DNA of 64,000 bases from Streptomyces pactum (GTDB lineage: Bacteria > Actinomycetota > Actinomycetes > Streptomycetales > Streptomycetaceae), in contig NZ_CP019724.1 of assembly GCF_002005225.1 (NCBI RefSeq), positions 1,922,001 to 1,986,000 of the forward strand, given 5' to 3'. The notes under the pieces are model-generated. The model saw only the letters and a list, made by a program, of their open reading frames with translations. It did no database searches and was not told where the DNA came from. Numbering within the stretch: position 1 is the stretch's first letter; every line of letters starts with the position of its first letter. Positions 120 to 50,151 of this stretch are shown here, piece by piece. Made by a program: the position numbers and the translations under genes.

Positions 120-197
120 CCCCGCTGTCCGCCACATCCAGGGCTCCCGTAGACGGTCGGAAGGCCGGTGGAGGTAACAGGCGGGACGTCTTGTTGA

Positions 198-286
198 GGA
201 CCATCCCCGCGGGTGCGGGGAGCAGTTCACCGCGCCGATCGCGGCCAGGTAGGCGCCGGGACCATCCCCGCGGGTGCGGGGAGCAG
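198..286 (-). CRISPR. CRISPR array 1, type I-E, two repeats and one spacer
   Basis: Two identical 28-bp repeats at 198-225 and 259-286 (plus-strand reading GGACCATCCCCG followed by CGGGTGCGGGGAGCAG) enclose one 33-bp spacer. The shared 75-bp leader lies on the right, so the array is transcribed leftward on the minus strand, where each repeat begins CTGCTCCCCGC. The repeat has the CCATCC allele, as in array 2. Its single spacer next to an intact leader makes it either a young or a collapsed array. It is 18 kb from the cas genes. Confidence 0.9.
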
Positions 287-3770: not shown

Positions 3771-3794
3771 GCGGATGTCCTTCGGTCGATGGGG

Positions 3795-8197: not shown

Positions 8198-8289
8198 CAC
8201 TACCTCCGTGGGTGAGGGACGGCGACTGGTGCCGCCACGCCACACGGCGCGGCAGCACCAGCCCGCGAAGACGCGAAGCCCTGGGGTGG

Positions 8290-9089: not shown

Positions 9090-9329
9090 CGGGGTTGAGC
9101 CCTCGCGTCGTCTCGGTGTCCGGCCCACTCCTGAGAAGCCGCGAGGAGGAGGCCGGACGGTCAACAGCCGCTCGCTCCGGAGGAGAGGGCGAGCAGCCAC
9201 CAACCAGACAACTCGCTTCTGGGGCCTGGTGGTTAGGGCGATTCGCCGTCCACTCCGAGGAAAGGCCTAGGATGATTTGACTTTCCCTTTACCTGGTGGA
9301 TGAGGGGGCGTCAGAGCTACCGTTCGGGC

Positions 9330-10616: not shown

Positions 10617-11152
10617 CCACGGCGCCCGCCATCGAACTGCGCACGTTCACCACCCTCGACACCGCCCGCGGCGACCTCCTCGACGTCTACGCCGACGTGC
10701 GCGCCCCGCTTCTCCACCTGCCCAATTACGCGGTCACCGCCTTCGGCGAGCGCCTGGACCGGCACGGCGGCGAGCCGGGATTCACCGCAGTCCTCGCCTA
10801 CGCGGACGAGCATCCGGTCGGATACGCCTACGCCAACACCATCGAGCACGGCGACCGCTACTGGCAGCGCACCAGCCCGGCGCCTGCGGCCCCATACGCC
10901 GAGCGCCCGGCCGTGGCTCTGAAGGAGATCGGCGTCCGGCCGGCGTGGCGGAAGACCGGCACTGCCCGGCGTATCCACGACGCCCTCCTCGCCACGCGCG
11001 ACGAACCGTTCGTCACGCTGATGGTCAACCCGGCCGCCGGGGACGGAAAGGTCCACGCTCTCTACCGGTCGTGGGGGTACGAGGACATCGGACAGAGCCA
11101 GCCGTCACCGGCGTCGCCGGTCCTGACTGTGATGGTCCGTGCCGTGCGCTGA
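10613..11152 (+). CDS. GNAT-family N-acetyltransferase
   Basis: This 179-residue protein has the GNAT layout: VLAYADEHPVGYAYANT as beta strands, LKEIGVRPAWRKTGTARRIHDALLA as motif A (acetyl-CoA pyrophosphate loop, with KTGTAR in place of the usual Q/RxxGxG/A), and LYRSWGYEDIG near the C-terminus. It is translationally coupled to the upstream regulator through a four-base overlap. The substrate is unknown; acetylation of the lanthipeptide or self-protection is possible but not supported by anything beyond location. The gene ends 70 bp before CRISPR array 2. Confidence 0.85.
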   Translation: MTTAPAIELRTFTTLDTARGDLLDVYADVRAPLLHLPNYAVTAFGERLDRHGGEPGFTAVLAYADEHPVGYAYANTIEHGDRYWQRTSPAPAAPYAERPAVALKEIGVRPAWRKTGTARRIHDALLATRDEPFVTLMVNPAAGDGKVHALYRSWGYEDIGQSQPSPASPVLTVMVRAVR

Positions 11153-11222
11153 CCGGGGCGCGGGGCACGGCAGAACGCTGCTGCGCGACGGCGTCAGCAG
11201 TTGAGCGCCTCGTCGCCATGAG

Positions 11223-12225
11223 ACGGCAACCCTGCGGGTGCGGGGAGCAGATGGCTGGCCTCCAGCGCGACGCCGACGACCGGGGGCCATCCCTGCGGGT
11301 GCAGGGAGCAGTTCGGCGCTCACGGGCGCACGTCCTTGCCGCTGGGACCATCCCCGCGGGTGCGAGGAGCAGGCCAGGCCCGTACGTGCTGGGGGCCGTG
11401 AGCGGGACCATCCCCGCGGGTGCGGGGAGCAGGTGGCGCGCTGGTCGGTGGTGATGGGGGCCGCGGGACCATCCCCGCGGGTGCGGGGAGCAGGCGTCCC
11501 CGTCGCCGGACCGGCGCGCCTGGTGGGGACCATCCCCGCGGGTGCGGGGAGCAGTAGCCCTCCGGGGCTGGTCGGCCGTACTACGTGGGACCATCCCCGC
11601 GGGTGCGGGGAGCAGCGGTACAGCGTGAAGCTGGTGGAGCGGCCTCGGGGACCATCCCCGCGGGTGCGGGGAGCAGGTCGTAGCCCGGTCGATTCGTGAC
11701 GCGGTGCCGGGACCATCCCCGCGGGTGCGGGGAGCAGGTCGGCATCGGCGTGGACGAGGTGACCGGCGAGGGACCATCCCCGCGGGTGCGGGGAGCAGTG
11801 GGTGAGAGGGATAGCAGAACGCGCCGGAGGTGGACCATCCCCGCGGGTGCGGGGAGCAGAAGTTCATGTGGGAGTCCGTCCTCAAGCCGCTGGGACCATC
11901 CCCGCGGGTGCGGGGAGCAGTCCCTTTCGTGGATTACCCCATCGTCCCGAAGGGGACCATCCCCGCGGGTGCGGGGAGCAGGGCACATCGGAAAGCTGAA
12001 CATCAAGGCGACCGGGACCATCCCCGCGGGTGCGGGGAGCAGACTCAAGGCGGCGGGGGTGACCCCGCCGGGGGGGGACCATCCCCGCGGGTGCGGGGAG
12101 CAGGGATCCGCCAACTCCGGCCAGGCCCACCGATGGGGACCATCCCCGCGGGTGCGGGGAGCAGGTGGACGCCGGGTACATCACGGTGAACCCGCTGGGA
12201 CCATCCCCGCGGGTGCGGGGAGCAG
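11223..12225 (-). CRISPR. CRISPR array 2, type I-E, 17 repeats and 16 spacers
   Basis: Repeats start at 11223, 11284, 11345, 11405, 11466, 11527, 11588, 11649, 11710, 11771, 11832, 11893, 11954, 12015, 12076, 12137 and 12198, each 28 bp. Spacers are 33 bp except 11373-11404 (32 bp). The three leftmost repeats are degenerate, marking the leader-distal end; the leader lies on the right (12226-12300), so transcription is leftward. All intact repeats carry the CCATCC allele. I saw no spacer that matches the rest of the window by eye. Confidence 0.97.
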
Positions 12226-12970: not shown

Positions 12971-14636
12971 ATGCCCACCACGCTGAGAGAGCTGAGCGAG
13001 ACCGCCAGCCGCAACCTGCGCGAGGTCATCTCCGACACCCTCATGCCGGACGATGCCCGAGAACAGTCCGTCGTGGTCCGACAGCTGACCAACCTGGTCA
13101 GGCACCTGCAGACCGCACTGGAGAGCGCCGGGGAGCGGCCCCGGCGGGCGAACCCCGGGCCCGCCACCCATCTGGCCACCGCCCAGAGCGCTCTGCGCCG
13201 CGCGGCCGGACGATTGCCCGCCCTCGACGACGAGGTTGCCGCCCTGCACCACGGCACTCCGCTGGCCCGTGCGGTCCAGGCGGCGGCCGCCGTACAGGAC
13301 CTCATCGCCAGCCATCGCGGGCGGGACGGCATCCCGGTGACGCCGTACGCCCTGGCGTTCACCGAACGCCCCGCCCGGTCCTACCTGGTGCACTGCTCGG
13401 CGGACCTGGCCTGGGGAGCGGCCCGAGTGGCTCACGCGTTGGGCGAGGCCGTCACCAACGAGGGCACCGCGGTGCAGCTGTACGTCGCGCGCGGAAGCCT
13501 CGACCAAGCCTCGGTGTTCGGCCGCACCGCCGGCGGACAGATGAACCGGGCTACTGAGGCGTTCCCGCATGTGCCGCCGCTCGATCCCCGCCCGGCTCTG
13601 CCCACCGATGCTCCCGAGAGCATCACCGCGCATCTCGCCGACGACTGCGAGCGCCTGTCCCGGGTTGCCTTCGAGGCCCTGCACGGCCGCGGCGAGTCCG
13701 GCTTGAGCGGGTCCGACGTGCAGCAACTGACTCGATGGCGGGCGATGAGTGACCTGCTGTCCGGCCGTATCCTGCTGCACGTCGCCACGTCCGTCGATCC
13801 GCACACCGCCGAGCCGCTGCGGGAGGCCGCCGGCCGGCTGCGGGAGACGGCACAGGCCTGGCAAGAGAGCGCGGCGCAGTGGCACCGGGTCGTCGATCTC
13901 TCCGACCCTCGCGTCCACCCGAAGCTGCCGCTGCCCAGCTACCACCTCGCGCGCAGCGGTCAGTTCACACACCTGCCCAAGACGCCTCCGCACCCCGCCC
14001 TGCTCACCGCGCACTCGCATACGACACGCCTCGGTCAGCTGCTCTACGGCATGGCCTGGAACCCGGAGACACCAGGGCGCCCGGTCCAGCGCGACACCCG
14101 GGAGGTGCTTGCCGACGCCGGAGGCCTCGCGGAGCTGACGCACACGATGTACCGGGTGGCAGCTTGCCGCGGCCATGCCCTCCGTCGTCAGGCGGATCGA
14201 ATCCACTCTGGTGACCGACAACGTGGATCACCGTCCTCCGGAGGCCGTGCATCGCTTCTACCCGCTGCCCAGCCACCAGACGAGACGCCTCGTAGAGCGC
14301 TACGAGCCCGCCGTGAGGGCCGAGCAGGCAGCCGCCGCCAGCATCCTGCGCACGGCTGCCCGTACGGGCATGGACACCGCGCGCGCCCGGCTGGACGCGG
14401 CCGCCCACAGACAGATCCGGTCCGGTCAGCCGTGGCTGCCCGTCGACGTGGCGGCGGAACAGCAGTCGGGGCCCACGCTCCCCGCGGCCTCGACTGCCCG
14501 CCCCAGTGCTGCGGCGGCGCGCAGCCGGTCGACAACCGGCACCCGTTCCCCGAGCACGAAGCCCACGACGTCCGGTCCTGTCACCGCCCACCGGTCCGGC
14601 GACGGCATCGAGCACCGCCCCGGTCGCAGCAGATAG
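12971..14636 (+). pseudogene. Large helical hypothetical protein, interrupted by a frameshift near 14160
   Basis: Frame 2 codes convincingly from ATG 12971 to about 14158 (MPTTLRELSETASRNLREV to THTMYRVA), then turns into Arg/Gly-rich nonsense up to a stop at 14794. Good coding character resumes in another frame from about 14160 (QLAAAMPSVVRRIESTLV, VERYEPAVRAEQAAAAS) and stops at 14636. Joined, the product would have about 555 residues: mostly helical, without a signal peptide or known domain, and with a Ser/Thr-rich tail. The break is equivalent to one extra or two missing bases near GTGGCAGCTT. It is either a real pseudogene or a sequencing error. It is paired with the upstream 137-residue gene. 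Confidence 0.6.
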
Positions 14637-15036
14637 CCCCGGGAAAGGTGAGGTGCTTCACAGCGCCCAAGACATTCCTCACGGTGCGCCACCCGGCCGG
14701 GCAGCCGCCCTCTTCACCCGCAAACCCTCAAGAGGAAAGTGACCACTCCGATGTTGAGGAAGTGGCCGCCCCGGGCGACCGCCCGGCCGGGTAACTCTGC
14801 GCAATGGCAGCCAACTCCCATTGCGGGAACGATGGGTTGACGGTCGGTGCGGTTTCTCATCCGGGCCGCTAAGTGACTGTTTGAGTACCAAAGCACCTGA
14901 CCGTCGCGGGGTGTTGTTTCAGGCGGCGGCAGGCCTCTGCGTTGCTTGGACAGGTTCACCAGGTCACCTGAAAGCGGAAACACAACTGCCACTTTCCGCA
15001 CTTGAGTGATCAGTGACCCGACCATCACCTAGAGTC
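14637..15036. other. Intergenic region upstream of the secreted protease
   Basis: No convincing gene was seen here. Up to 14794 the region only holds the out-of-frame tail of the preceding frameshifted gene. It is somewhat richer in A/T than its neighbours from 14800 onward. A TAGAGT at 15030-15035 could be a -10 element for the protease gene, with the hairpin at 15037-15061 falling at the start of the transcript; no well-spaced -35 was evident. Confidence 0.4.
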
Positions 15037-15061
15037 ACACCAGTGCAATCCGCACTGGTGT
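15037..15061 (+). promoter_or_regulatory. Perfect inverted repeat upstream of the S1 protease gene
   Basis: ACACCAGTGC (15037-15046) and GCACTGGTGT (15052-15061) form perfect 10-bp arms around a five-base loop. It lies just after a possible -10 element and 33 bp before the GTG start of the protease. It could be a repressor operator or an mRNA-stabilising 5' hairpin. Confidence 0.5.
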
Positions 15062-15093
15062 TCCACTGGCTTCAATCGGCCTTGGAGGCTGCC

Positions 15094-16203
15094 GTGAATC
15101 ATCACTGGCAGAAGTTCTTACAGGTCCCCGTCGTTGCGCTTCTGGCAACGGTAGCTGCAACTACGCCGGCATCCGCTGAGGATGGTCCCGCGCCGCTCAC
15201 CAGTCCGACGCGGGCGGCGGCGCTTGTGGCCGAGCTCGGCGGCCACCGCACCGGAGGCGTGTACTACGAGGATGGGCGTCTCGTCGTAGCGGTTACTGAT
15301 CAAGCGGCAGCCCGAACGGTCCGGAATGCGGGCGGTGCTGCGAAGGTTGTGACCCGCAGCGCAGATGAGTTGGCATCCATCCACGACAAGCTCGACCAAC
15401 TGGGAAACATCCCAAATACGGCATGGGGTGTTGAAGCCGCCACCAACCAGGTGAACGTCGAGATCTTCGACGGTGCACCTTCTGATGCTCGTTCCCGAAT
15501 CGAGAAGATTGCGGCTGCCCACCCGGGCGCCGTAGAGATCAGCCGGATCAACAGCAGGTTGGTGTTCAAGGAACGGCTCCTCGGAGCCGTCGGCATCACA
15601 TCCGATGGATGGCTGTGTTCTGCCGGGTTCAACGCCAAGAACTCGTCGGGGGCAATCTACGTACTCACCGCCGGTCACTGCGTGCCGGGTACCGGCAACA
15701 TCTGGTACATGAACTGGAACAACGAGAGGATCGGCGTCCAAAACGCCTACGCCAACGGCTACGGCACCAGCGGCTGGTGCGATGGTGTAGACCGCGGCTG
15801 CGACTGGGCCACCATCCGGGCAGACGGTTCCACGATCAAGCCGGTCGAGGGTGTCCGATACTTCAACGGCACCGTCAAGGACATCACCACCTCCCGATTC
15901 GCGGCTGAACGGGAGGACTCAGACCGGATCGGCACCATGAGTGAGGACACGACAGGGTTCATCACGAAGACAAGCGTGACCGTCAACATCAGCGGCAAAA
16001 CCATGCACGGCATGTACGAGTCAAACCACTGCGCCCTAGGAGGCGACAGCGGTGGGCCGCTCTTCCACGGATCGACGGCTCTGGGCCTGCTCTCAGGGGG
16101 CACTGCCGAGACGACCTGCAACTCCTCGTCTTCCGGCGAGTACCGCAACTACTACACGAGGGTGCAGACGGTAGTGAACGAACGCGGCCTCCGCATCTAC
16201 TGA
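15094..16203 (+). CDS. Secreted S1-family serine protease (streptogrisin/alpha-lytic type)
   Basis: The 369-residue preproprotein starts at GTG 15094, with GGAGG six bases upstream. Residues 1-29 are a signal peptide (VPVVALLATVAATTPASA). A prosegment of about 135 residues follows, and then the chymotrypsin-like domain with the complete triad: His195 in VLTAGHC, Asp237 in CDWATIR and Ser319 in GGDSGGP. Cysteines occur in the positions expected for the disulfides of this family. It is exported and probably self-processed. It stands alone between CRISPR arrays 2 and 3; a role in trimming the FxLD lanthipeptide leader outside the cell is conceivable but untested. Confidence 0.92.
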   Translation: MNHHWQKFLQVPVVALLATVAATTPASAEDGPAPLTSPTRAAALVAELGGHRTGGVYYEDGRLVVAVTDQAAARTVRNAGGAAKVVTRSADELASIHDKLDQLGNIPNTAWGVEAATNQVNVEIFDGAPSDARSRIEKIAAAHPGAVEISRINSRLVFKERLLGAVGITSDGWLCSAGFNAKNSSGAIYVLTAGHCVPGTGNIWYMNWNNERIGVQNAYANGYGTSGWCDGVDRGCDWATIRADGSTIKPVEGVRYFNGTVKDITTSRFAAEREDSDRIGTMSEDTTGFITKTSVTVNISGKTMHGMYESNHCALGGDSGGPLFHGSTALGLLSGGTAETTCNSSSSGEYRNYYTRVQTVVNERGLRIY

Positions 16204-17588: not shown

Positions 17589-17607
17589 CCAGACAGCCCT
17601 CGTCGCG

Positions 17608-18245
17608 GGACCATCCCCGCGGGTGCGGGGAGCAGAAATTCGTGGCCGCGTTCGTGCCCCGCCAGCAGGGACTATCCCCGCGGGTGCGGGGAGCAGCGGG
17701 ATCAGCAAGGTAGTGCGAACTGGGGTCAGGGACTATCCCCGCGGGTGCGGGGAGCAGATCTGCGCGTCGTAGGCGCTGCGGTTGGCGTCGGGACTATCCC
17801 CGCGGGTGCGGGGAGCAGGGGAGGTAGACGATGCCGCCCATCACGCACGCGGGACTATCCCCGCGGGTGCGGGGAGCAGGAGCCGTCGCAGCGGGAGCAG
17901 GACCGGCAGGCGGGACTATCCCCGCGGGTGCGGGGAGCAGATCATCTGCGGGATCGTCACCGCAGGATCAGCGGGACTATCCCCGCGGGTGCGGGGAGCA
18001 GGGGACCGTGCCTACCCCAGCGCTCGGTTCCCGGGGACTATCCCCGCGGGTGCGGGGAGCAGTTGTAGCAGCCGATCGCGGGCGGGCACATGACGGGACT
18101 ATCCCCGCGGGTGCGGGGAGCAGTTGTAGCAGCCGATCGCGGGCGGGCACATGACGGGACTATCCCCGCGGGTGCGGGGAGCAGCGCCAGGGAGCGGGGC
18201 CCGTGGCCTTGGATTCGGGACTATCCCCGCGGGTGCGGGGAGCAG
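17608..18245 (-). CRISPR. CRISPR array 3, type I-E, 11 repeats and 10 spacers
   Basis: Repeats of 28 bp start every 61 bp from 17608 to 18218, with 33-bp spacers. The leader is on the right, so transcription is leftward, away from cas3. Only the leader-distal repeat (17608) has the ancestral CCATCC allele; the other ten read CTATCC. Two neighbouring spacers, 18063-18095 and 18124-18156, are identical (TTGTAGCAGCCGATCGCGGG at their start). Confidence 0.97.
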
Positions 18246-18320
18246 ACTGTTTGACCTGCGAGTTTACTGAGGCAGAAGTGTACTTTCAGCGACTTTCACA
18301 GATTCCGACAAATTAGACAT
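18246..18320 (-). promoter_or_regulatory. CRISPR leader of array 3
   Basis: The 75-bp leader begins ACTGTTTGACCTGCGAGTTT beside the last repeat and ends GATTCCGACAAATTAGACAT. It separates array 3 from the cas operon and, in the minus orientation, drives array 3 leftward. The cas3 gene starts 135 bp further right, so this interval must also hold the cas promoter, in which I could not identify a confident -35/-10 pair. Confidence 0.8.
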
Positions 18321-18454
18321 ATGGCGTCCTTCGATCCGCAAGTGGTCCCGGAAGTAGCCGATCATCGTACGGCTTGAGAGCGCCGTCTCCCTGCGAACCC
18401 TTCAGTTTTCTCGTTCTGGCGTGTGGAACCGGGTTTTCCCTGTATCAATCACTC

Positions 18455-21385
18455 ATGAGGAGGGATGGGAGGAACGCCCGTTCTGGCCTGCTACGTCGGC
18501 TTGGGGAGCCGGCTAGGTCGGTATGGGCCAAGCACGATTATGACACCGACGGTTGGCTGCCGTTATGGCGGCACATGGAGGACAGTGCCGCGGTGGCGGG
18601 CTTGTTGTGGGACCGGTGGCTGCCCGCAGGAGTGCGGAAGCTGATCGCCGAGGCGTTGCCGCAGGGGGAGCCGGACGCGCGTGCCCTTGCCGTATGGCTT
18701 GCCGGTGTGCACGACGTCGGCAAGGCCACCCCGGCGTTCGCGTGCCAGGTCGACCTGCTCGCCGACGCGATGCGCGATCAAGGGCTGGAGATGCGTTCCG
18801 TGCGGGCGCTGGGGCCGGATCGTCGGGTGGCGCCGCATGGCCTGGCCGGACAGGTATTGCTGGGGGAATGGCTGGAGGAACGGCACGGGTGGGCGTCCGC
18901 GCGGACCGGGCAGTTCACGGTTGTTGTCGGAGGGCATCACGGCGTGCCGCCCGAGCACGGTCAGATCAAGGCCCTCTACGAACATGAGGAGTTGCTCCGC
19001 ACTCCCGGTGCGGGCAGCCGGGTCTGGCGACAGGTGCAGACCGAGCTGCTCGATGCCTGTGCGGAACAGTTCGGCGTGGCCGAACGGCTGGGGCAATGGC
19101 GGCAGGTCAGGCTGCCGCAGCCGGTGCAGGTGCTGCTCACCGCGCTGGTCATCGTCTCCGACTGGATCGCCAGCAATCCGGACCTGTTCCCGTACTTCCC
19201 CGACGGCGCGTCCCGCGGCGACCAGGAGCGTCTTGCCGCGGCCTGGCAGGGTCTGGACCTGCCGGAACCGTGGCGGGCCGAGGAACTGGACCGCAGTGCC
19301 CAGGAGCTGTTCACCTCACGGTTCGAACTGCCGGCGGGAGCCGAGATACGTCCCGTCCAGGACGCGGCCGTGGAACTCGCCCGGGAGATGGAGACGCCCG
19401 GGCTGATGGTCGTCGAGGCGCCGATGGGTGAGGGGAAGACGGAGGCGGCCCTCGCCGTGGCCGAGATCTTCGCGGCGCGCTCGGGTGCGGGTGGGGTGTT
19501 CTTCGCCCTGCCCACCATGGCCACGGGCAACGCAATGTTTCCCCGCCTGCTCGACTGGCTGGACCGGTTGCCGGGGGTGGCCGGCTCACGTCACTCGGTG
19601 CACCTGGCCCACTCCAAGGCGGCTCTCAACGAGGACTTCGCCGGCCTGATGGCCCGTACGGGAGGGGTCGCGGCCGTCGGCGTGGACGAAGCGGCGCCGG
19701 CCTCCCGACAGAGGCCGGAGGAGCGGCACCGCGCGGGGGGCGAGCTCGTGGCGCATGCCTGGCTACGGGGGCGTAAGAGGGCCATGCTGGCCTCCTTCGT
19801 CGCGGGCACCATCGACCAGTTGCTGTTCGCCGGGCTGAAGAGCAGGCACCTGGCGCTGCGGCACCTCGCTGTGGCCGGCAAGGTCGTCGTCATCGACGAG
19901 GCGCACGCCTACGACACGTACATGAGCGTGTACCTGGACCGGGTGCTGTCCTGGCTGGGCGCGTACCGGGTTCCGGTGGTGGTGCTGTCCGCCACGCTGC
20001 CGGCCTCACGCAGGCGTGAGCTGGTCGCGGCGTACTCCGGCCGGAACGAAGCCGTAGCCGGAGAGACGGGCGCGGCTGCGGCGGACGCGTACCCGCTGCT
20101 GACCGCCGTTGCTCCGGGTGGTGGTCCCCTGGTCCGCCGCCCGCAGGCGTCTGCCCGCTCCTCGGAGGTGCGGGTGGAGCCGCTCGCCGACGGCCTGGAC
20201 GTCCTCGCCGACCGGCTGGAGAACGAGCTGATCGACGGCGGGTGTGTCCTGGTGATCCGGAACACGGTCAGACGGGTGCTGGAAACGGCTCGCGCATTGC
20301 GCGACAGGTTCGGTGCCGAGAACGTGACCGTCGCCCACTCGTGCTTCGTCGACCTCGACCGGGCGGGCAAGGACAAGGAACTGCTCCGCCTCTTCGGGCC
20401 TCCGGAGAAGACGGACGCCAGGCCCTCGGGCCGGCACATCGTGGTGGCCAGCCAGGTCGCCGAGCAGTCCCTGGACGTCGACTTCGACCTGCTGGTCAGC
20501 GACCTGTGCCCGGTCGACCTGCTCCTGCAGCGCATGGGCCGCCTGCACCGCCACTGGCGCGGACCAGGCCAACAAGAGCGGCCCGAACGCCTGCGCACAC
20601 CACGCTGTCTGGTGGCGGGAGCCGACTGGACCGCGGACGTACCCGCTCCGGTACGGGGGTCGGTCGCCGTGTATGGGCAGCACGCCCTGCTGCGGTCGGC
20701 CGCGGTGCTCCTTCCCCACCTGGAAGGCGGGTCTCGGCGCCCGGTGAGGCTCCCAGCGGACATCAGCACACTCGTACAAGAAGCGTACGGGGAAGCCCCG
20801 GTCGGGCCGGACCACTGGCAGGAGGCCATGAAGACGGCGGGCGAGCGGTTCGAGCGGCACCGCGACGACCAGGCCGAACGCGCCGCCGTGTTCCGTCTGG
20901 GGGACGTCGGCAAACCGGAACGGCCGTTGTTCGGCTGGGTCGCCGCCGGCGTAGGAGACACCGACGACACCCCCACCGGGCGTGCACAGGTCCGCGACAG
21001 CCGGGACAGCCTGGAGGTCGTGGTGGTCCAGCGGCGTGGGGACGGCAGCCTCGCCACCCTGCCGTGGCTCGAGGCGGACGGCAAGGGACGCCGGCGCGCG
21101 GGCCTCGAGTTACCGCAGGACGCGACGCCGACGCGGTTCGCGGCCCGAACGGCCGCGAGCTGCGGGCTGCGGCTCCCCCTGCAGTTCTCCGGCGAGACGA
21201 TGGACCGGGCCATCGAGGAGCTGGAGCAGCTGTACCTGCCCAACTGGCAGGGCAAGAACAGTCCTTGGCTCTCCGACCATCTGATTCTCGCTCTCGACGA
21301 GGACTGTCAGACCCACCTGGCAGGGTTCGTACTCAGCTACAGCCCGAGTGACGGTCTTGAGGTGACCCGTGACGCAGACGACTGA
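18455..21385 (+). CDS. cas3: Type I-E CRISPR nuclease-helicase Cas3
   Basis: The 976-residue protein has an N-terminal HD nuclease with His40, His86-Asp87 (GVHDVGK), His161-His162 (GGHHGV) and SDW at about 235. A superfamily 2 helicase follows: Walker A APMGEGKT (322-329), DEAH (481-484), LSATLP (511-516) and QRMGRLHR (692-699). It is recruited by Cascade and degrades target DNA. The ATG at 18455 is chosen because the protein conserved in the family begins soon after; an upstream in-frame ATG at 18374 would add 27 residues. The gene overlaps cse1 by 17 bp. Confidence 0.96.
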   Translation: MRRDGRNARSGLLRRLGEPARSVWAKHDYDTDGWLPLWRHMEDSAAVAGLLWDRWLPAGVRKLIAEALPQGEPDARALAVWLAGVHDVGKATPAFACQVDLLADAMRDQGLEMRSVRALGPDRRVAPHGLAGQVLLGEWLEERHGWASARTGQFTVVVGGHHGVPPEHGQIKALYEHEELLRTPGAGSRVWRQVQTELLDACAEQFGVAERLGQWRQVRLPQPVQVLLTALVIVSDWIASNPDLFPYFPDGASRGDQERLAAAWQGLDLPEPWRAEELDRSAQELFTSRFELPAGAEIRPVQDAAVELAREMETPGLMVVEAPMGEGKTEAALAVAEIFAARSGAGGVFFALPTMATGNAMFPRLLDWLDRLPGVAGSRHSVHLAHSKAALNEDFAGLMARTGGVAAVGVDEAAPASRQRPEERHRAGGELVAHAWLRGRKRAMLASFVAGTIDQLLFAGLKSRHLALRHLAVAGKVVVIDEAHAYDTYMSVYLDRVLSWLGAYRVPVVVLSATLPASRRRELVAAYSGRNEAVAGETGAAAADAYPLLTAVAPGGGPLVRRPQASARSSEVRVEPLADGLDVLADRLENELIDGGCVLVIRNTVRRVLETARALRDRFGAENVTVAHSCFVDLDRAGKDKELLRLFGPPEKTDARPSGRHIVVASQVAEQSLDVDFDLLVSDLCPVDLLLQRMGRLHRHWRGPGQQERPERLRTPRCLVAGADWTADVPAPVRGSVAVYGQHALLRSAAVLLPHLEGGSRRPVRLPADISTLVQEAYGEAPVGPDHWQEAMKTAGERFERHRDDQAERAAVFRLGDVGKPERPLFGWVAAGVGDTDDTPTGRAQVRDSRDSLEVVVVQRRGDGSLATLPWLEADGKGRRRAGLELPQDATPTRFAARTAASCGLRLPLQFSGETMDRAIEELEQLYLPNWQGKNSPWLSDHLILALDEDCQTHLAGFVLSYSPSDGLEVTRDADD

Positions 21386-23138
21386 ACCCCCCGGTGCCGG
21401 CGTGGGTGGGGGTGAAGTGGTGTCCTTCGATCTGACCAGCCGGCCGTGGATCTGCGTGCTGCGGCGTGACGGCTCCCAGGATGAGCTGTCACTCGGCCAG
21501 GTCTTTGCCCAGGCCGATGACCTGCGGTGCGTCGTGGGGGAACTGGCCACACATGAGTTCTCCCTGGTCCGCCTTCTCCTGGCCGTTGCGCATGATGCCT
21601 TGGACGGTCCCGGCGACATCGAGGACTGGACGGAGCTGTGGGAAGACCCTGACTGCTTCGCTCCGGTCCAGGCATACCTGGAGCAGCAGCGCGAGCGGTT
21701 CGATCTCTTGCACCCCGTCACACCGTTCATGCAGACCGCCGGGCTGCACACGGCGAGGGACGAGGTGTTCTCCCTCAACCGGATCGTGGCCGACGTGCCG
21801 GCCGGGGAGCCGTTCTTCAGCACACGGATGCCGGACGTGGAACGGCTGTCTTTTGCCGAGGCCGCGCGCTGGGTCGTTCACGTCCATGCCTACGACACCT
21901 CCGGCATCAAGTCCGGCGTGGTCGGCGACGACCGAGTCAAGAGCGGCAAGGTCTACCCGCTCGGCACTGGGTGGGCGGGGGGCCTGGGCGGCGTCTTCGT
22001 GGAGGGCGGCACCCTGCGCGAGACCCTGCTGCTCAACCTGGTGGCGGCGGACACCGAGGAGCTCGCCTTCTCCGGCGACGACCGGCCGGCCTGGCGCCGT
22101 GAGCCTTGCGGGCCGGGCTCCGACGGGCGAGCCGCGACCGGCCTGCGTGACCTGTACACCTGGCAGTCACGCCGGGTGCTTCTGCACCACGACCCGGACG
22201 GTGTCCACGGTGTCGTCCTCGGCTACGGCGATCCCCTCGCTTCGCGGAACCTACACCGCAGCGAGCCGATGACCGCATGGCGGCGCAGCCCCACGCAGGA
22301 GAAGAAGCTGGGGCAGTCGCCCGTGTATCTGCCGCTCGAACACGATCCGGGCCGATCGGCCTGGCGGGGTATCGCCGCGCTCCTCGCCGACCGGCTGGAG
22401 GAGGGCGGAGGCGCAGAGGGGCCCTCGCGGCTGCGGCCGCGGATCCTCGAGTGGGTCGCGCGGCTGGTGACAGAGGGGCACTTGCCCCGTCGTTTCCTCG
22501 TCCGTGCCCGGGTGGCGGGTGTCAGGTACGGGACCCAGCAGTCCGTGGTCGATGAGGTGGTCGACGACCGCCTGGAGATGCCGGTCGTCCTGCTGCACGG
22601 GCGAGATCCCGCTTACGCCGCGCAGGTCATCGCGGCGGCCGAGGACGCCGACAGGGCGGTGCGGGTCTTAGGGGATCTTGCGGCCGATCTGGCCCGGGCG
22701 ACCGGGTCCGAGCAGGAGGGGCCGAAGTCTGCGGCCCGGGCCGGAGGATTCGACGCGTTGGATCATGGCTACCGCGGTTGGCTGTCCGAGATGGCGGAGG
22801 CCCCCGACCCCTTCGAGCACCGGCAGACCTGGCAGCGACAGGTGCGGCAGGCGGTGGGCCGTCTCGGTGACCGTCTCATCGCCGCCGCGGGCGACTCGGC
22901 CTGGGAGGGCCGGATGCACACCGACAACAGGGGCAGCACCCACTGGCTGAACGCGGGCCTGGCCGACGTGTGGTTCCGGGGACGCCTGGCCAGGGCGCTG
23001 GGAGACCCCGACGCACCAGGCTCCGCCGACTCCGGCGCGAAGGCCACCACCTCGGCCGACGGCGGCCCGCCCGGGCCGGAGCCCACCGGCCCGCCAGGAA
23101 CCGAACACGCCGTGACCGAACCGGAGGTGCACGTATGA
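21369..23138 (+). CDS. casA: Cascade large subunit Cse1 (CasA/Cas8e)
   Basis: The 589-residue protein is the large subunit of the type I-E effector, which recognises the PAM and recruits Cas3. The family hallmark SFDLTSRPWICVLRRDG lies near the N-terminus, followed by HPVTPFMQTAGL and SGIKSGVVGDDRVKSGKVYP. The start used here is GTG 21369, inside the end of cas3 and with GAGG upstream. GTG codons at 21417 or 21420 immediately before the conserved SFDLT segment are plausible alternatives. The C-terminal 40 residues are Pro/Gly/Ala-rich and unlikely to be conserved. It overlaps casB by four bases. Confidence 0.95.
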   Translation: MTQTTEPPGAGVGGGEVVSFDLTSRPWICVLRRDGSQDELSLGQVFAQADDLRCVVGELATHEFSLVRLLLAVAHDALDGPGDIEDWTELWEDPDCFAPVQAYLEQQRERFDLLHPVTPFMQTAGLHTARDEVFSLNRIVADVPAGEPFFSTRMPDVERLSFAEAARWVVHVHAYDTSGIKSGVVGDDRVKSGKVYPLGTGWAGGLGGVFVEGGTLRETLLLNLVAADTEELAFSGDDRPAWRREPCGPGSDGRAATGLRDLYTWQSRRVLLHHDPDGVHGVVLGYGDPLASRNLHRSEPMTAWRRSPTQEKKLGQSPVYLPLEHDPGRSAWRGIAALLADRLEEGGGAEGPSRLRPRILEWVARLVTEGHLPRRFLVRARVAGVRYGTQQSVVDEVVDDRLEMPVVLLHGRDPAYAAQVIAAAEDADRAVRVLGDLAADLARATGSEQEGPKSAARAGGFDALDHGYRGWLSEMAEAPDPFEHRQTWQRQVRQAVGRLGDRLIAAAGDSAWEGRMHTDNRGSTHWLNAGLADVWFRGRLARALGDPDAPGSADSGAKATTSADGGPPGPEPTGPPGTEHAVTEPEVHV

Positions 23139-23899
23139 CCCCGGCTCTCACCGGCTCCGACTACGAACCGGCAACTGAGGCCCGTAGAAAGGATGGTGGA
23201 CCAGTGACGACCACCGTATCCACCCCGCCCGCCGCAGCCGCAGTTCAGCAGCAGGTCGCGGATCTCGCCGCCACACGCATCGCCTCCTGGCAGGAGGGAT
23301 ACCTCAAGGACAGGTCCCCCGCCGTCGCCGCTCTCGCGCGACTGCGCCGTGGCGCGGGCCGTGAGGCGGGCGAGACGCCCGACCTGTGGAGCCTGGTCGA
23401 CACCGATCCGCTCCACACTCCGGTCGAGGGGATGCGGCCGTTGAGCGAGCAGGAGCTGGAGCGTGCCGAGAACGCGCTGCACGCGGCTCTCACCCTGTGG
23501 GCGTTCCACCAGCAGTCCCGCGGCGTCCCCATGCACCGTCGGCACACCCGTGAACGGCCGGGCGGCCTCGGCGCGGCGGTCCGGCGTCTGATGCCGGCCG
23601 ACGGCACAGACGCTCCCGTCCGTAAGCGCCTGGTCCGCGCGGGCACCGCCCCCGACCTCGCCACCCTCACCCAGCGGCTGCGCGACATCGTCGCCTTGCT
23701 GCGCGCTGCCAAGGATCCGGTCCCACTCGACTACGCGCTCCTCGCAGGCCAGCTCTACGTCTGGCAGTGGGCCGACGGACCCGCCGCCGTGCGCCGCCGG
23801 TGGGGCCGTTCCTTCCACGAACAGGTGCGGACCCTGCCGGGCACCGCCCCGGCCTCCAACGAGAAGAACACCCCGGACACCGACAAGGACGCCTCGTGA
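23135..23899 (+). CDS. casB: Cascade small subunit Cse2 (CasB/Cas11e)
   Basis: The 254-residue helical protein is the small subunit that dimerises along the Cascade belly and stabilises the R-loop. Typical segments are SWQEGYLKDRSPAVAALARLRRG, ALTLWAFHQQS and RLRDIVALLRAA, ending with LLAGQLYVWQWADG. The ATG at 23135 has GGAGG nine bases upstream and overlaps the casA stop. A GTG at 23203 just before the conserved core is an alternative. The N-terminal 25 residues are probably unconserved. It overlaps cas7 by four bases. Confidence 0.94.
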   Translation: MTPALTGSDYEPATEARRKDGGPVTTTVSTPPAAAAVQQQVADLAATRIASWQEGYLKDRSPAVAALARLRRGAGREAGETPDLWSLVDTDPLHTPVEGMRPLSEQELERAENALHAALTLWAFHQQSRGVPMHRRHTRERPGGLGAAVRRLMPADGTDAPVRKRLVRAGTAPDLATLTQRLRDIVALLRAAKDPVPLDYALLAGQLYVWQWADGPAAVRRRWGRSFHEQVRTLPGTAPASNEKNTPDTDKDAS

Positions 23900-25092
23900 A
23901 CCGCATCTTCCTGGACGTGCACGCCCTGCAGACCGTCCCGCCCAGCAACCTCAACCGGGACGACACGGGCGCGCCCAAGACGGCCGTCTACGGCGGAGTC
24001 CCCCGGGCCCGTGTCTCCAGCCAGGCGTGGAAGCGGGCCATCCGCACCTGCTTCAAGGACGAGCACCTGCTCGACCCCGCCGAGCTGGGCGTGCGGACCA
24101 AGAAGATCGTGGAGCTGCTGGCCGACCGGATCACCGGGCTCGACCAGCCCGTCGAGCAGGAGACGGCCTTGAAGCTCGCCGACGAGACGGTGCGGGCCGC
24201 CGGCTTCAAAACCGAGGTCCCCAAGCGGAAAGCCGACCAGGCGAAGAAGGACGGAGGCCCCGCCCCCGCCCCCGAGAGCAAGTACCTGGTCTTCCTCAGC
24301 TCCCGGCAGCTCGACGGTCTGGCGCGCCTGGCGCTGGAAGGGGCGGACGACATCACGGGGTTCTTGAAGACGAAGGAGAACAAGGCCCGGGCCAAGGAGC
24401 TCGCGGACACCCGGCACTCCGTGGACATCGCCCTCTTCGGCCGGATGGTCGCCGACGTGGCCGACATCAACGTGGACGCCGCCGTGCAGGTCGCCCACGC
24501 CCTCAGCGTCCACCGGGTCGACAACGAGTCCGACTACTACACGGCCGTGGACGACGAGAACACCGACGAGGAGACCGGCGCCGGAATGATCGGCACCGTC
24601 GACTTCAACTCCGCAACGCTCTACCGTTACGCCGCCCTCGGCGTGCACCTGCTCGCCGGCAACCTCGGCCAGGGCCTGCGCGACGACGAACCGCGCACCG
24701 AGCCGGTTCGCCGCGCCGTCGAGGCGTTCGTGCGGGCCTTCGTCGACTCGCTCCCCACCGGGAAGATCAACACCTTCGGTCACCACACCGAGCCCGACGC
24801 CGTGGTCGTCAAGCTCCGCACCACACGCCCCATCAGTTACGTCGCGGCCTTCGAGGACCCGGTCCGCAGCGACGGCGGCGGACATCTGCGCGAGGCCGCC
24901 GACCGGCTCGCCGCCTACGCCGCCGACGTCGAGCGCGCCTACGGCGACCCCGAGACCACCCTCACGTGGGTCCTGCGGGTCGGCCCCGCCACGCAGAAGC
25001 TCGCCGATCTGGGCACCGAGGCCGGAACGTTGCGCGAACTCGCCGCCGCCGTCGGACAGGCCGTCGCCGAACGCCTGGAGAAGCCCGCATGA
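23896..25092 (+). CDS. cas7e: Cascade backbone subunit Cas7e (CasC/Cse4)
   Basis: The 398-residue RAMP-fold protein forms the six-subunit crRNA-binding backbone of Cascade. It begins NRIFLDVHALQTVPPSNLNRDD and carries [11 protein letters not shown], both characteristic. Later segments include RHSVDIALFGRMVAD, NSATLYRYAALGVHLL and NTFGHHTEPDAVVVKL. The GTG start at 23896 overlaps the cse2 stop (GTGA), which indicates translational coupling. It is the most conserved member of the effector block, and all expected segments are present. Confidence 0.96.
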   Translation: MNRIFLDVHALQTVPPSNLNRDDTGAPKTAVYGGVPRARVSSQAWKRAIRTCFKDEHLLDPAELGVRTKKIVELLADRITGLDQPVEQETALKLADETVRAAGFKTEVPKRKADQAKKDGGPAPAPESKYLVFLSSRQLDGLARLALEGADDITGFLKTKENKARAKELADTRHSVDIALFGRMVADVADINVDAAVQVAHALSVHRVDNESDYYTAVDDENTDEETGAGMIGTVDFNSATLYRYAALGVHLLAGNLGQGLRDDEPRTEPVRRAVEAFVRAFVDSLPTGKINTFGHHTEPDAVVVKLRTTRPISYVAAFEDPVRSDGGGHLREAADRLAAYAADVERAYGDPETTLTWVLRVGPATQKLADLGTEAGTLRELAAAVGQAVAERLEKPA

Positions 25093-25832
25093 GCCGCACC
25101 GGCGTGCTCGTCCTTCGCCTGGCAGGCCCCCTGCAGTCCTGGGGGGCCTCCTCCCGCTTCACCCGCCGCACCACCGAATCCGCCCCGACCAAGAGCGGCG
25201 TCGTCGGCCTTCTCGCCGCGGCGGCCGGCATCGAACGCGGCGACGACACGCGCCTGGCGCCCCTGGCGGCACTGCGGTTCGGGGTCCGCATCGACCAGCC
25301 CGGCACCCGCATCCGGGACTTCCACACCGCCCACCACGGCGTCACCGGGGCGTCTATGCCGCTGTCCGAGCGGTTCTACCTAGCCGACGCCGTCTTCGTT
25401 GCCGTCGTCGAAGGCGACCACGCCCTCCTCACCGGCCTGCACGACGCCCTGCGCGCCCCGGTCTACCCCCCGTACCTCGGCCGGCGTTCGTGCCCGCCTT
25501 CCGAGCCGGTCGACCTCGGACGATACGAGGACGCGACGCTCGAGGACGCACTGACGAGCGCGCCGTGGCAGGCCTCCGCCTGGTACCGCAGACGCCACCG
25601 GCCCCCGCAGACCCTGACCGTACTGCGCGAGACCACCACCACCGAGTCTGCCGAGTCTGCCGACGTCCTGCGCGACCAGCCCGTCAGCTTCGACGCCGCC
25701 CACCGCCGGCACGCGCTGCGCACCGTCGTCACCACCGCCGTACCCACTCCCCTCCCCGCAGGCGACGGCAGCCCGCACGGCACGCACGACCCGTTCGCCG
25801 CCCTCGACGACCTGGAGAATGAGAGAGCCTGA
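25089..25832 (+). CDS. cas5e: Cascade subunit Cas5e (CasD)
   Basis: The 247-residue RAMP protein caps the 5' handle of the crRNA. It shows the family signature VLRLAGPLQSWGASSRFTRR and PTKSGVVGLLAAAAGIERGD, then RIDQPGTRIRDFHTAHH and PPYLGRRSCPPSEPV. The C-terminal 40 residues are low in complexity. It overlaps cas7e by ATGA and shares the TGATG stop/start with cas6e. Confidence 0.95.
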   Translation: MSRTGVLVLRLAGPLQSWGASSRFTRRTTESAPTKSGVVGLLAAAAGIERGDDTRLAPLAALRFGVRIDQPGTRIRDFHTAHHGVTGASMPLSERFYLADAVFVAVVEGDHALLTGLHDALRAPVYPPYLGRRSCPPSEPVDLGRYEDATLEDALTSAPWQASAWYRRRHRPPQTLTVLRETTTTESAESADVLRDQPVSFDAAHRRHALRTVVTTAVPTPLPAGDGSPHGTHDPFAALDDLENERA

Positions 25833-26620
25833 TGTTCCTCTCCCGCTTCCGCGTCAACACCGCGCGGCCCGGCGCTCGCCGCCTGCTGTCCTCACCCCAG
25901 GCCATGCACGCGGCCGTCATGTCCTCCTTCCCTCACATCCTGCCCTCCGACAGCCCGCAGCCCGACGCACCACGTGTGCTGTGGCGTCTGGACCAGCGAG
26001 CCCGCGCCGAGGTGCTGCTGTACGTCGTCAGCCCCGACCGTCCCGACCTGACGCACCTGGTCGAGCAGGCCGGGTGGCCCGCCGTCGCCGGACCCGAGAA
26101 CCCCGGCTGGCAGACCCGGCCTTACGCTCCACTGCTCGACCGCCTGGCGACCGGTGACCGTTGGGCGTTCCGGCTGACCGCGAACCCCGTGCACACGGTC
26201 CGCCGCAAGGAGGGCGAACCCCGCAAGCTCACCGCCCACCTCACGCCCGTCCACCAGATGGGCTGGCTGCTCGACGAGGAACGCCAGAAGCGTCTCGGTT
26301 TCCGCGTCTGCGAGAAGCCGGCCGACCGGCGGCTGCTGCCCGACGGCACCACCCACCACAAACAGCCCCACCCCGGCGACCGCTACGAGCTGGCCGTACA
26401 GGACACCCGGTCCCTCGCCTTCGACAAGTCCCGCGGCTCCGGCGGCCGCCGGGACAAGTCGGTCATCGTCGTCACCGTCACCTTCGAAGGACGGCTGGAA
26501 GTCACCGATCCCGCAGCACTGCGCCGCACCCTCACCCAGGGCATCGGCCGGGCCCGCGCCTACGGCTGCGGCCTCCTCACCCTGGCACCCGTCACCCAGC
26601 CCACCCACGCACAGCCATGA
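25832..26620 (+). CDS. cas6e: CRISPR RNA endonuclease Cas6e (CasE/Cse3)
   Basis: The 262-residue protein cleaves the repeat hairpin of the pre-crRNA and stays bound to the 3' handle. It begins MFLSRFRVNTARPGARRLL; His26 in AMHAAV is at the position of the catalytic His of the family. A Gly-rich C-terminal loop (LTQGIGRARAYGCGLLTLAP) binds RNA. The start shares one base with the cas5e stop. Its substrate here is the CCCCGC-ACC-GCGGGG hairpin of the repeats; the allele switch seen in arrays 3 and 4 lies outside that stem. Confidence 0.95.
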   Translation: MFLSRFRVNTARPGARRLLSSPQAMHAAVMSSFPHILPSDSPQPDAPRVLWRLDQRARAEVLLYVVSPDRPDLTHLVEQAGWPAVAGPENPGWQTRPYAPLLDRLATGDRWAFRLTANPVHTVRRKEGEPRKLTAHLTPVHQMGWLLDEERQKRLGFRVCEKPADRRLLPDGTTHHKQPHPGDRYELAVQDTRSLAFDKSRGSGGRRDKSVIVVTVTFEGRLEVTDPAALRRTLTQGIGRARAYGCGLLTLAPVTQPTHAQP

Positions 26621-27585
26621 GCACGGTCTCCCGCCGCCCGGCGCTCACTCCCAGGCAGCTCACCCGCACCGGCGAACGCCTCTCCTTCGTCTACCTGGAA
26701 CGCTGCACGGTCCATCGCGACGCCAACGCCATCACGGCTCAGGACGCGGAAGGCACCACTCACATCCCCTCGGCGACCATCGGCACCCTCCTCCTCGGCC
26801 CCGGCACCCGCGTCACCCACCAGGCCATGAGCGTGCTCGGTGAGACCGGCGCGGCGGTCTGCTGGGTCGGCGAACACGGCGTGCGCTACTACGCGTCCGG
26901 CCGCGCCCTCAGCCGCTCCTCCGCCCTCATGGAAGCCCAGGCCAGGCAATGGGCCAACCCGCGCAGCCGTCTCGCCGTGGCGCGAGCGATGTACCGGTTG
27001 CGCTTCCCGGACGAGGACCCCTCCGGTCTCACCCGGCACGAGCTCCTCGGCCGCGAGGGAAAACGGGTCAAGGACTGCTACCGGGCCCAGGCCGCCCGCA
27101 CCGGCGTCCCCTGGCGCGGCCGCCGCTACACCCCCGGCGACTTCACCAGCGGCGACGCCGTCAACCAGGCCATCACCGCCGCCGCCCAGTGCATGTACGG
27201 CATCGCCCACGCCGTCGTCACCTCCCTGGGCTGCAGCCCGGCCCTCGGTTTCATCCACTCCGGACACGAACTGTCCTTCGTCCTGGACATCGCCGACCTC
27301 TACAAGACGGAGCTCGGCATCCCGCTCGCCTTCGCCGTGGCCGCACAGGACGAGGAAGACACCGGCCCTCGCACCCGCCGCGCACTACGCGACCGCATCA
27401 ATGAAACGTCCCTGCTGAACCGATGCGTCGACGACATCAAACACCTCCTCCTCCCGGAATCGACCGGCTCCGCCGCCCCGGGCGACGACCGGGACGTAGT
27501 CACCCTCCAGAGCGACCACGGCCACCAGGTCGCCTCAGGCGTCAACCACGATGGCCCAGAGGACTACGGAGACGAGCTCTGGTGA
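26617..27585 (+). CDS. cas1: CRISPR integrase Cas1e
   Basis: The 322-residue protein is the catalytic subunit of the adaptation complex. The N-terminal half is the beta-sandwich (SFVYLERCTVHRDANAIT, IPSATIGTLLLGPGT); the C-terminal helical half carries the metal site: Glu in LLGREGKRVKDCYR, His in FIHSGHELSFVLDIADLYK, and Asp in the same segment. The last 30 residues form an acidic tail. It is coupled by a four-base overlap both to cas6e and to cas2. All residues needed for integration are visible, so adaptation is probably functional. Confidence 0.96.
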   Translation: MSTVSRRPALTPRQLTRTGERLSFVYLERCTVHRDANAITAQDAEGTTHIPSATIGTLLLGPGTRVTHQAMSVLGETGAAVCWVGEHGVRYYASGRALSRSSALMEAQARQWANPRSRLAVARAMYRLRFPDEDPSGLTRHELLGREGKRVKDCYRAQAARTGVPWRGRRYTPGDFTSGDAVNQAITAAAQCMYGIAHAVVTSLGCSPALGFIHSGHELSFVLDIADLYKTELGIPLAFAVAAQDEEDTGPRTRRALRDRINETSLLNRCVDDIKHLLLPESTGSAAPGDDRDVVTLQSDHGHQVASGVNHDGPEDYGDELW

Positions 27586-27944
27586 CCGTCATCGTCCTGA
27601 CCAACTGCCCGGCCGGCCTACGCGGCTTCCTCACACGCTGGCTGCTGGAGATCTCCGCCGGCGTGTTCGTGGGCAATCCCTCCGCCCGGGTCCGCGACGC
27701 CCTCTGGGAAGAAGTCCGCCAGTACGCAGACCAGGGCCGCGCCCTGCTGGCCCACACCATGAACAACGAGCAGGGCTTCACCTTCCGCACCCACGACCAC
27801 GCCTGGCACCCGACCGACCACGAAGGCGTCACCCTGATCCACCGCCCAGACCCGAACGCACCCACCGCCGCCCCAACTCCCCGGAACGGTCCGCCATCCG
27901 GCTGGAGCAGAGCCTCCAAACGCCGACGCTTCGGCAGAGGCTGA
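27582..27944 (+). CDS. cas2: CRISPR adaptation protein Cas2e
   Basis: The 120-residue protein starts at GTG 27582, overlapping cas1. It has the Cas2e pattern VIVLTNCPAGLRGFLTRWLLEISAGVFVG and later NEQGFTFRTHDHAWHPTDHEG. It forms the central dimer of the Cas1-Cas2 integrase. The C-terminal 25 residues are Pro/Arg-rich. The stop is 17 bp before the leader of array 4, so the cas transcript could run into that array. Confidence 0.95.
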   Translation: MTVIVLTNCPAGLRGFLTRWLLEISAGVFVGNPSARVRDALWEEVRQYADQGRALLAHTMNNEQGFTFRTHDHAWHPTDHEGVTLIHRPDPNAPTAAPTPRNGPPSGWSRASKRRRFGRG

Positions 27945-27961
27945 TGCAAGTCGAGCCACGT

Positions 27962-28036
27962 ATGCCCTATTTGTCAGAATCAAAGCAAGTACTCGAAAAC
28001 GGCCCGCAGCGCCAGTAAAGCCGCAGGTCATCCAGT
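27962..28036 (+). promoter_or_regulatory. CRISPR leader of array 4
   Basis: In the transcribed (plus) orientation the leader begins ATGCCCTATTTGTCAGAATC and ends CGCAGGTCATCCAGT beside the first repeat. Reverse-complemented, it matches the other three leaders with the same 75-bp length. It lies right after cas2 and points rightward, so the leaders of arrays 3 and 4 both abut the cas operon in inverted orientation. Confidence 0.8.
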
Positions 28037-28985
28037 CTGCTCCCCGCACCCGCGGGGATAGTCCCGGAGAGCAGTAAATGGAATTCACGATCTCGACCTG
28101 CTCCCCGCACCCGCGGGGATAGTCCCGGACGGATGGAGTGGACGGACGGGGACGGAGCCTGCTCCCCGCACCCGCGGGGATAGTCCCGCCTGCCCGACCA
28201 CATTGTGGGAGCGCCTCCTCTGCTCCCCGCACCCGCGGGGATAGTCCCGCCGGTGGCTCGCTGAAGAGGAGGTCGGCGCTCTGCTCCCCGCACCCGCGGG
28301 GATAGTCCCCCGCTGGCAGCCTGATGGCTGTCACGTTCGAGCTGCTCCCCGCACCCGCGGGGATAGTCCCCTGGCCCGCATCGCGCTCCGCAAGATGTGC
28401 CTCTGCTCCCCGCACCCGCGGGGATAGTCCACCCGGCGGCCGCGAGGCGGTCCGTCGTGCGGGCTGCTCCCCGCACCCGCGGGGATAGTCCCGGGGCGCG
28501 AGTTTGGGAGCGGACGGCCCGGAGCTGCTCCCCGCACCCGCGGGGATAGTCCCGACCGGGGCCTGAAGGGGTGCGGCCGGTCCGCCTGCTCCCCGCACCC
28601 GCGGGGATAGTCCCGGGTCCGGGTCCGGGTCCGGGTCCGGGTCCGGGCGCTGATGCTCCTGCTCCCCGCACCCGCGGGGATGGTCCCTCACGTGCTGGCC
28701 CGCCTCATACCGCCACACACTGCTCCCCGCACCCGCGGGGATGGTCCCGCCATCGACGGCTTCACCCTCGAGAACACGCCCTGCTCCCCGCACCCGCGGG
28801 GATGGTCCCGGTCATCTATCTCCTTCGGTGGCGGGTGCCTTCTGCTCCCCGCACCCGCGGGGATGGTCCCGACTCCGTCACCACGGACGCGTCCGGCTGC
28901 TCCCCGCACCCGCCGGGATGGCCCCTGGGCCATGATCTGCGCGGCCTGGTCCAGTTCCTGCTCCCCGCACCCGCGGGCCTGGACC
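28037..28985 (+). CRISPR. CRISPR array 4, type I-E, 16 repeats and 15 spacers
   Basis: Repeats of 28 bp start at 28037, 28098, 28159, 28220, 28281, 28342, 28403, 28464, 28525, 28586, 28659, 28720, 28781, 28842, 28897 and 28958. Repeats 1-10 (leader side) read GGGATAGTCC; repeats 11-14 read GGGATGGTCC; 15 and 16 are degenerate ends. Spacers are 33 bp except the tenth (28614-28658, 45 bp, five GGGTCC units) and the fourteenth (28870-28896, 27 bp). Transcription is rightward. Confidence 0.97.
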
Positions 28986-29095
28986 CTCGGCCGAGCCCGC
29001 CGGCCCCGCGCTTGATCGACGTCCTGTCCACAGAGCAGACTGCTTCTCATGGGATCAGTGGGCATGGCCACCAGGCTGCGGATCGGACAGTGCCG

Positions 29096-50130: not shown

Positions 50131-50151
50131 AGCGGTCCGTCTGTGATCCAC

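Follow-up and report, generated by a model that had tools for sequence, protein, structure and literature searches.

The same one-base repeat switch in the two inverted CRISPR arrays that flank a type I-E cas block in Streptomyces pactum

How the several arrays of one CRISPR-Cas system keep an identical repeat is, to our knowledge, not settled. The question is raised by a 64-kb stretch of Streptomyces pactum DNA (71% GC; hereafter the window) that holds a single type I-E system, in which the same repeat base switches between the leader side and the distal end of both arrays next to the cas genes. All eight type I-E genes (cas3, cse1, cse2, cas7e, cas5e, cas6e, cas1e and cas2e) lie in one block at 18.4-27.9 kb. 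Array 3 stands on the cas3 side and array 4 on the cas2 side, both with leaders pointing to cas, and arrays 1 and 2 lie further left on the same strand as array 3 (Table 1). The 29-nt palindromic repeats, the spacers of mostly 32 nt and the adjoining leaders are those of a type I-E system, and the 28-nt repeat core has 41 exact copies genome-wide, all inside the window. Both flanking arrays were found in the window's orientation and within reach in 24 of the 59 loci compared (window included), so the layout is common in the genus, and the available parts of the S. avermitilis paper state that most actinomycete type I-E systems have two oppositely transcribed arrays (PMC4762764). How one base change came to stand in both flanking arrays is the subject of this analysis.

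Table 1. Positions of the arrays, leaders and cas genes in the window.
Feature	Position	Strand	Remarks
Array 1	197..286	-	2 repeats, both G24; comparison
Array 2	11222..12225	-	17 repeats, all G24; comparison
Array 3	17607..18245	-	11 repeats of 29 nt, 32-nt spacers
Array 3 terminal G24 repeat	17607-17635	-	
Array 3 A24 block	17668-18245	-	ten repeats
Array 3 leader	18246..18373	-	faces cas3; far limit approximate
cas3	18374..21385	+	open frame, start unrefined
cse1/casA	21369..23138	+	
cse2/casB	22970..23899	+	open frame, start unrefined
cas7e	23767..25092	+	open frame, start unrefined
cas5e	24027..25832	+	match = residues 360-568 of open frame
cas6e	25832..26620	+	
cas1e	26617..27585	+	
cas2e	27423..27944	+	match = residues 56-138 of open frame
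Array 4 leader	27945..28036	+	faces cas2; far limit approximate
Array 4, whole	28037-28986	+	16 repeats
Array 4 leader-side block	28037..28614	+	ten A24 repeats
Array 4 A/G junction spacer	28615..28658	+	44 nt = (GGGTCC)5 + 14 nt
Array 4 distal block	28659..28986	+	four intact G24 repeats (28659-28870), two degenerate

Each repeat of array 3 was read individually. Repeat position 24 is A in 10 of the 11 repeats, all on the leader side (A24), and G in the terminal repeat (G24), which is otherwise perfect. From its leader outwards, array 4 runs through ten A24 repeats, four intact G24 repeats and two degenerate G24 repeats (A24 in 10/16). Arrays 1 (2/2) and 2 (17/17) have G24 throughout; three leader-distal repeats of array 2 are degenerate at other sites. 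An earlier sequence-only reading had claimed this distribution over arrays 1-4, with coordinates one base off, and our repeat-by-repeat table agrees with it: the same derived base is present in both flanking arrays, and the ancestral base stands at both distal ends. Its view that the change spread by copying at the leader end is in our judgement right. The derived allele is contiguous from the leader and the ancestral allele distal, as in a variant stretch copied from the leader, with a distal side of one repeat in array 3. For array 4, the chance that the 4 G24 repeats among 14 intact ones would all fall at one given end is 1 in 1001. The sorting is weak in array 3 (G in 1/11), where the ancestral state is read from the terminal repeat alone.

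Two spacers in these arrays are unusual. Array 3 contains adjacent identical spacers (18063-18094 and 18124-18155), so one of its ten A24 repeats is there because a spacer was duplicated; tandem unit duplications are frequent in relatives, one of which (L121) repeats a run of 11 spacers. The 44-nt spacer of array 4 stands exactly at the A/G junction, a curious position. It would have the usual 32 nt with three copies of GGGTCC, so that slippage is likely. Spacers longer than 40 nt numbered 8 of 2346, this one counted, in a survey that took spacers of 20-50 nt.

We compared the alleles with those of related loci. Among the other loci listed with a Cas1 identity of at least 70% (rounded), the leader-side consensus was G24 in both flanking arrays in 20/20, and two plasmid systems whose Cas1 is 94% identical likewise have G24 on both sides of cas. 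The genome nearest by Cas1 in the genus sample (G176, 92%), which is also nearest by rpoB (95.5%, six genomes compared), has G24 in both arrays. A24 repeats occur in 9 of 391 other Streptomyces genomes, one or two copies each. A scan of an 84,980-species collection with a single exact 28-nt pattern, in which records very near the window's genome may be omitted, found A24 in 11 contigs, all titled Streptomyces. In 10 of these 11 the A24 copy lies inside a reported array, as one or two isolated copies, none of them leader-first; at locus L019 it lies outside the reported array. The plasmid loci also carry A24 in single, mostly degenerate repeats. As an array-wide allele, A24 was not found beyond the window in the 391 Streptomyces genomes or in the species-collection scan. 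A donor species with A24 as its main allele was sought in the same genomes and in the same scan with one 28-nt pattern, and none was found. Four leader-side alleles are limited to one genome, and A24 is the one that stands on both sides. Because the relatives have G24 on both sides and A24 elsewhere is isolated, A24 is, judged from these sequences, derived in the window's lineage.

How readily leader-side switches arise was estimated from a comparison set of 89 arrays (2127 repeats), with arrays 3 and 4 excluded. A switch was defined as a leader-side run of at least 3 repeats against a distal run of at least 2 with another base; repeat position 29, terminal repeats, arrays of fewer than 4 repeats and loci with Cas1 below 65% were excluded from the singleton and switch counts. 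Fifty such boundaries were observed, none at position 24. The resulting rate is rough, with degenerate arrays counted and the 50 boundaries concentrated in 20 of the 89 arrays. G24A made up 7 of 367 isolated variants (1.9%). If switches follow the spectrum of isolated variants, an independent G24A switch in a 16-repeat array would have a chance of roughly 0.7%. An independent second switch is thus improbable enough to favour a link between arrays 3 and 4.

Under the strict definition both arrays had switched in 2 of the 41 loci with both arrays, a set that includes near-identical strains, and in both cases the bases differed. The flanking arrays of L169 switched at positions 4 and 26, and those of L176 (S. 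clavifer plasmid, 13900-15453 and 3317-4259), which serves as a natural control, at 6 and 26. The window is the only locus with the same base switched in both arrays; it was added outside the strict rule, by which array 3, with a distal run of one terminal repeat, is not counted as a switch. Two patterns that the sequence-only reading had named as contrary to its proposal both occur in relatives: alleles scattered along arrays, as A24 is in single copies, and switches at different bases, as at L169 and L176. No tendency of partner arrays to switch alike was observed. In 19 other genomes, 6 flanking-array switches went towards the partner's base, 6 away from it and 2 neither way. Within a genome the two flanking arrays differ by 1.1 bases on average, compared to 1.375 for same-side arrays of the nearest relative, the within-genome difference being smaller in 13, larger in 5 and equal in 2 of 20 loci (window included). 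This closeness is weak support for a connection between arrays, and shared constraint by the Cas proteins could also explain it; the flanking-array statistics rest on 18 (consensus) and 20 (differences) of the 59 loci. The shared one-base switch is real, unusual in this sample and of a known kind.

The leaders limit the size of any tract that the two arrays could have exchanged. In an ungapped comparison over 80 nt, the leaders of arrays 3 and 4 share 64% identity, and 73% when gaps are allowed; the array 3 leader resembles the leaders of arrays 1 and 2 more closely (71% each). Over the 100 nt before its first repeat, array 4 matches the cas2-side leader of plasmid pM92 at 94% identity, and the array 4 leader is 82% like the cas2-side leader of NBC_00334. 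Typing of leaders by side is not clean in all relatives, which makes the argument weaker for array 3: compared with L056, the array 4 leader is nearer to the cas3-side leader (80% vs 67%), and compared with L103 the array 3 leader is nearer to the cas2-side one (75% vs 66%). Conversion through the leader of array 4 was considered and ruled out, as this leader stays of the pM92 type to a few bases before the repeat. Since the array 4 leader is unconverted, any exchange would have fallen within about 33 bp, that is, the repeat and the preceding CAGT. A shared tract with several linked sites, which would mark gene conversion, was not found between arrays 3 and 4: one site is shared and the array 4 leader keeps its own sequence. 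Gene conversion, which the sequence-only reading had offered, would have to spare this leader to within a few bases.

The best single reading of these data is an exchange of the leader-adjacent repeat between the two arrays, to which we give about an even chance. A24 would have arisen once, in either array 3 or array 4, and would have reached the first repeat of the other array through recombination between repeats, within the stretch of about 33 bp. As is known of CRISPR adaptation, the gain of a spacer copies the repeat next to the leader, and A24 would in this way have spread into later units. One possible route is an inversion through one crossover, 5' of base 24, between the receiving array's first repeat and an A24 repeat of the other array; by reasoning, this alone would put A at the two leader ends and G at the two distal ends, with no need for conversion. 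A very short conversion is the other, and either array may have been the donor. The claim of a transfer between arrays 3 and 4, made earlier from the sharing of the allele, is thus favoured by the estimate for a second independent switch, but the sharing alone is no proof, as G24A is recurrent. Against exchange, only one base is common to the two arrays.

That recurrence speaks for parallel mutation, in which G24A would have occurred separately in each leader-adjacent repeat and then been copied. A24 turns up in 9 of 391 genomes and in 11 contigs of the scan, and G24A accounts for 7 of the 367 isolated variants; leader-side switches themselves are common (50 boundaries in the 89 comparison arrays), and flanking arrays do not in general drift towards their partners. 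Such changes may have been aided by selection acting on the hairpin or on the 5' handle of the crRNA. Position 24 is presumably the third base of the 8-nt handle, a boundary that we take over from E. coli, and in folds of the free repeat A24 adds three hairpin pairs (-15.3 vs -14.3 kcal/mol); because A24 strengthens the fold, selection is kept as a possible helper of parallel change. Without selection, however, a switch of the second array at this base is expected in only about 0.7% of cases, the two other double-switch loci use different bases, and arrays 1 and 2 remained G24. We consider separate mutation unlikely, though still a serious competitor.

A single event would yield both boundaries if the arrays are chimeric, that is, if a cas block with A24 in both arrays was imported by recombination at the repeats, or A24 arrays were fused to resident G24 ones, leaving the old G24 units outermost. 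Replacement of cas loci by recombination at CRISPRs has been proposed for E. coli in the passages available of PMC2886076, and fusion or replacement fits the plasmid-bearing strains of S. anulatus and S. atratus described below; such systems are often plasmid-borne. The donor, however, must itself have had A24 in both arrays, and none with A24 arrays appeared among the 391 genomes or in the species scan. The same genome (G176) is nearest by cas1 DNA and by rpoB (six genomes), so that at this resolution nothing points to a foreign block. Import seems to us rather improbable, at somewhat under one chance in four. Far less probable still is a switch in array 4 alone, with a reversion in the final repeat of array 3 as the source of its G. 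Divergence is common in terminal repeats, according to the parts seen of PMC2886076 and PMC8047081, and the G of array 3 is one repeat; yet this repeat shows no other change, and the A24 with which array 3 begins at its leader is still derived with respect to near relatives, so that the sharing would still need explaining.

Exchange of the leader-adjacent repeat by an inversion crossover bears on the orientation of the cas block. The sequence-only reading had suggested that recombination between the arrays could flip this block, which is mechanically sound; a flip was not seen. In related plasmid systems with shared outer flanks, 19 pairs (10 + 9) keep one orientation and give no clear case of cas inversion; the pairs come from five groups and are therefore non-independent. 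One ambiguous hit, a 497-bp inverted match (78%) that joins the left flank of L176 to the right flanks of L171-L173, falls on a Uma2-family gene annotated on each side. It is possibly an old inversion or possibly a common gene, and it was not counted as an inversion. In three plasmids the Uma2-family gene lies just outside the cas2-side array; in another it lies on the opposite strand, outside the cas3-side array. The outer flanks of the window (up to 6 kb per side) had no match of at least 200 bases in the 59 fetched cas loci, and a protein-level comparison with 38 loci gave short, weak matches among the matches listed. For the 4.2 kb left of array 3, the best match in 391 Streptomyces genomes was 69% identical over about half the query; the right flank was sought in G176 and G205. 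In these comparisons no relative proved to have outer flanks close enough to those of the window for reading its orientation. In G176 the arrays are broken over contigs, and its contig C347, on which there is no repeat, matches window positions 9266-11140 at 81%. That paired inverted arrays swap the leader-adjacent repeat by a crossover within it, the repeats evolving in concert, the leaders staying distinct and the cas block being flipped in the same step, is a tentative idea that we would sooner doubt than accept.

Recombination of arrays was examined in relatives. At eight boundaries, two or more linked repeat sites switch together; in L110 (76-1934, 14200-15448), sites 12 and 14 run TG-AC-TG in one array and AC-TG in the other. 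A base returns in A-B-A order nine times, in six arrays, and such returns occur within single arrays (A-G-A at 12 in L105, A-T-A at 14 in L067, A-T-A at 22 in L057). They are not well explained by simple copying of the first repeat, and mutation plus copying is not always sufficient. Insertion within arrays, loss of intermediate units or array fusion could be other sources of returns and linked switches. In S. anulatus, where two different plasmids (L160 and L162) were compared, the final nine spacers of the cas-adjacent array of L162 recur among the last ten of a further array of L160 (5349-6680). The right flanks of S. atratus strains are 99.5% identical over 17.4 kb; two of the strains have a cas-adjacent array of 35 repeats, A12 throughout, and a third has one of 13, of which nine are G12. 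The 35- and 13-repeat arrays have only the last spacer in common, and the change may have gone either way. The further array, compared between one of the two A12 strains and the third, has G12 in both except in the terminal repeat. In these systems, then, arrays do recombine with one another or are replaced, at least where they are co-oriented. The strain-level exchanges involved co-oriented arrays or replacements, not inverted arrays.

The repeats that flank shared units were unchanged where strains could be compared in the same array, in 34/34 and 13/13 units of S. atratus and in 16/16 and 13/13 of the pair NBC_00963/NBC_00455. Repeat-by-repeat conversion is therefore infrequent. No spacer block was common to the two sides of a genome in the 59 loci, where L075 has one single spacer on both sides; in L162 one spacer is common to two of its arrays.

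The closest described system is the type I-E system of S. avermitilis, in which spacer acquisition is active. The portions consulted of that paper (PMC4762764) describe, as in the window, eight cas genes with a co-directional CRISPR downstream and an opposite one upstream, 29-bp repeats and 32-bp new spacers. The repeats of its two loci differ, whereas the window has identical leader-side repeats, both changed at one base. Runs of one repeat variant like those seen here are described in E. coli and Salmonella arrays and read as copying of the adjacent repeat; the passages available of PMC2886076 do not include a genome in which two arrays switch alike, as they do in the window. Deletion and duplication of units between CRISPR repeats (review, PMC8047081) resembles our reading in being repeat-mediated exchange, but the review passages concern rearrangement inside one array, whereas exchange between two inverted arrays is here suggested by one base. 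In the excerpts available, recombination between arrays is cited as rare (PMC11472070) and gene conversion is held insignificant for new motifs (PMC1892036). In the literature covered, as listings and excerpts and with most subscription journals outside the coverage, no genome was described in which two arrays had undergone a switch to one repeat allele.

A base at which two arrays switch alike offers a built-in marker of inter-array exchange, and it sets apart ten repeats in each array. Should exchange of the leader-adjacent repeat be confirmed, caution is needed wherever a genome's arrays are analysed as if independent. Should parallel mutation be confirmed instead, position 24, in what we take to be the crRNA 5' handle, would become a candidate for selection.

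Phage records gave no match to array 3 or array 4. The plasmid searches gave best matches that look like CRISPR arrays, with no protospacer resolved among them. Type I-E systems are frequently carried on plasmids: a Cas1 like that of the window (E 1e-60) was present in 89 plasmid records, 61 of them from Streptomyces; of the 89 records, 60 were listed and 20 fetched for comparison. Elsewhere in the window, the minus strand carries an open frame with a thiopeptide-type bacteriocin biosynthesis domain (5057-8245) and another that the PADLOC model mad2 matches in part (1692-3770), and direct repeats with a 22-nt spacing lie at 50015-50146.
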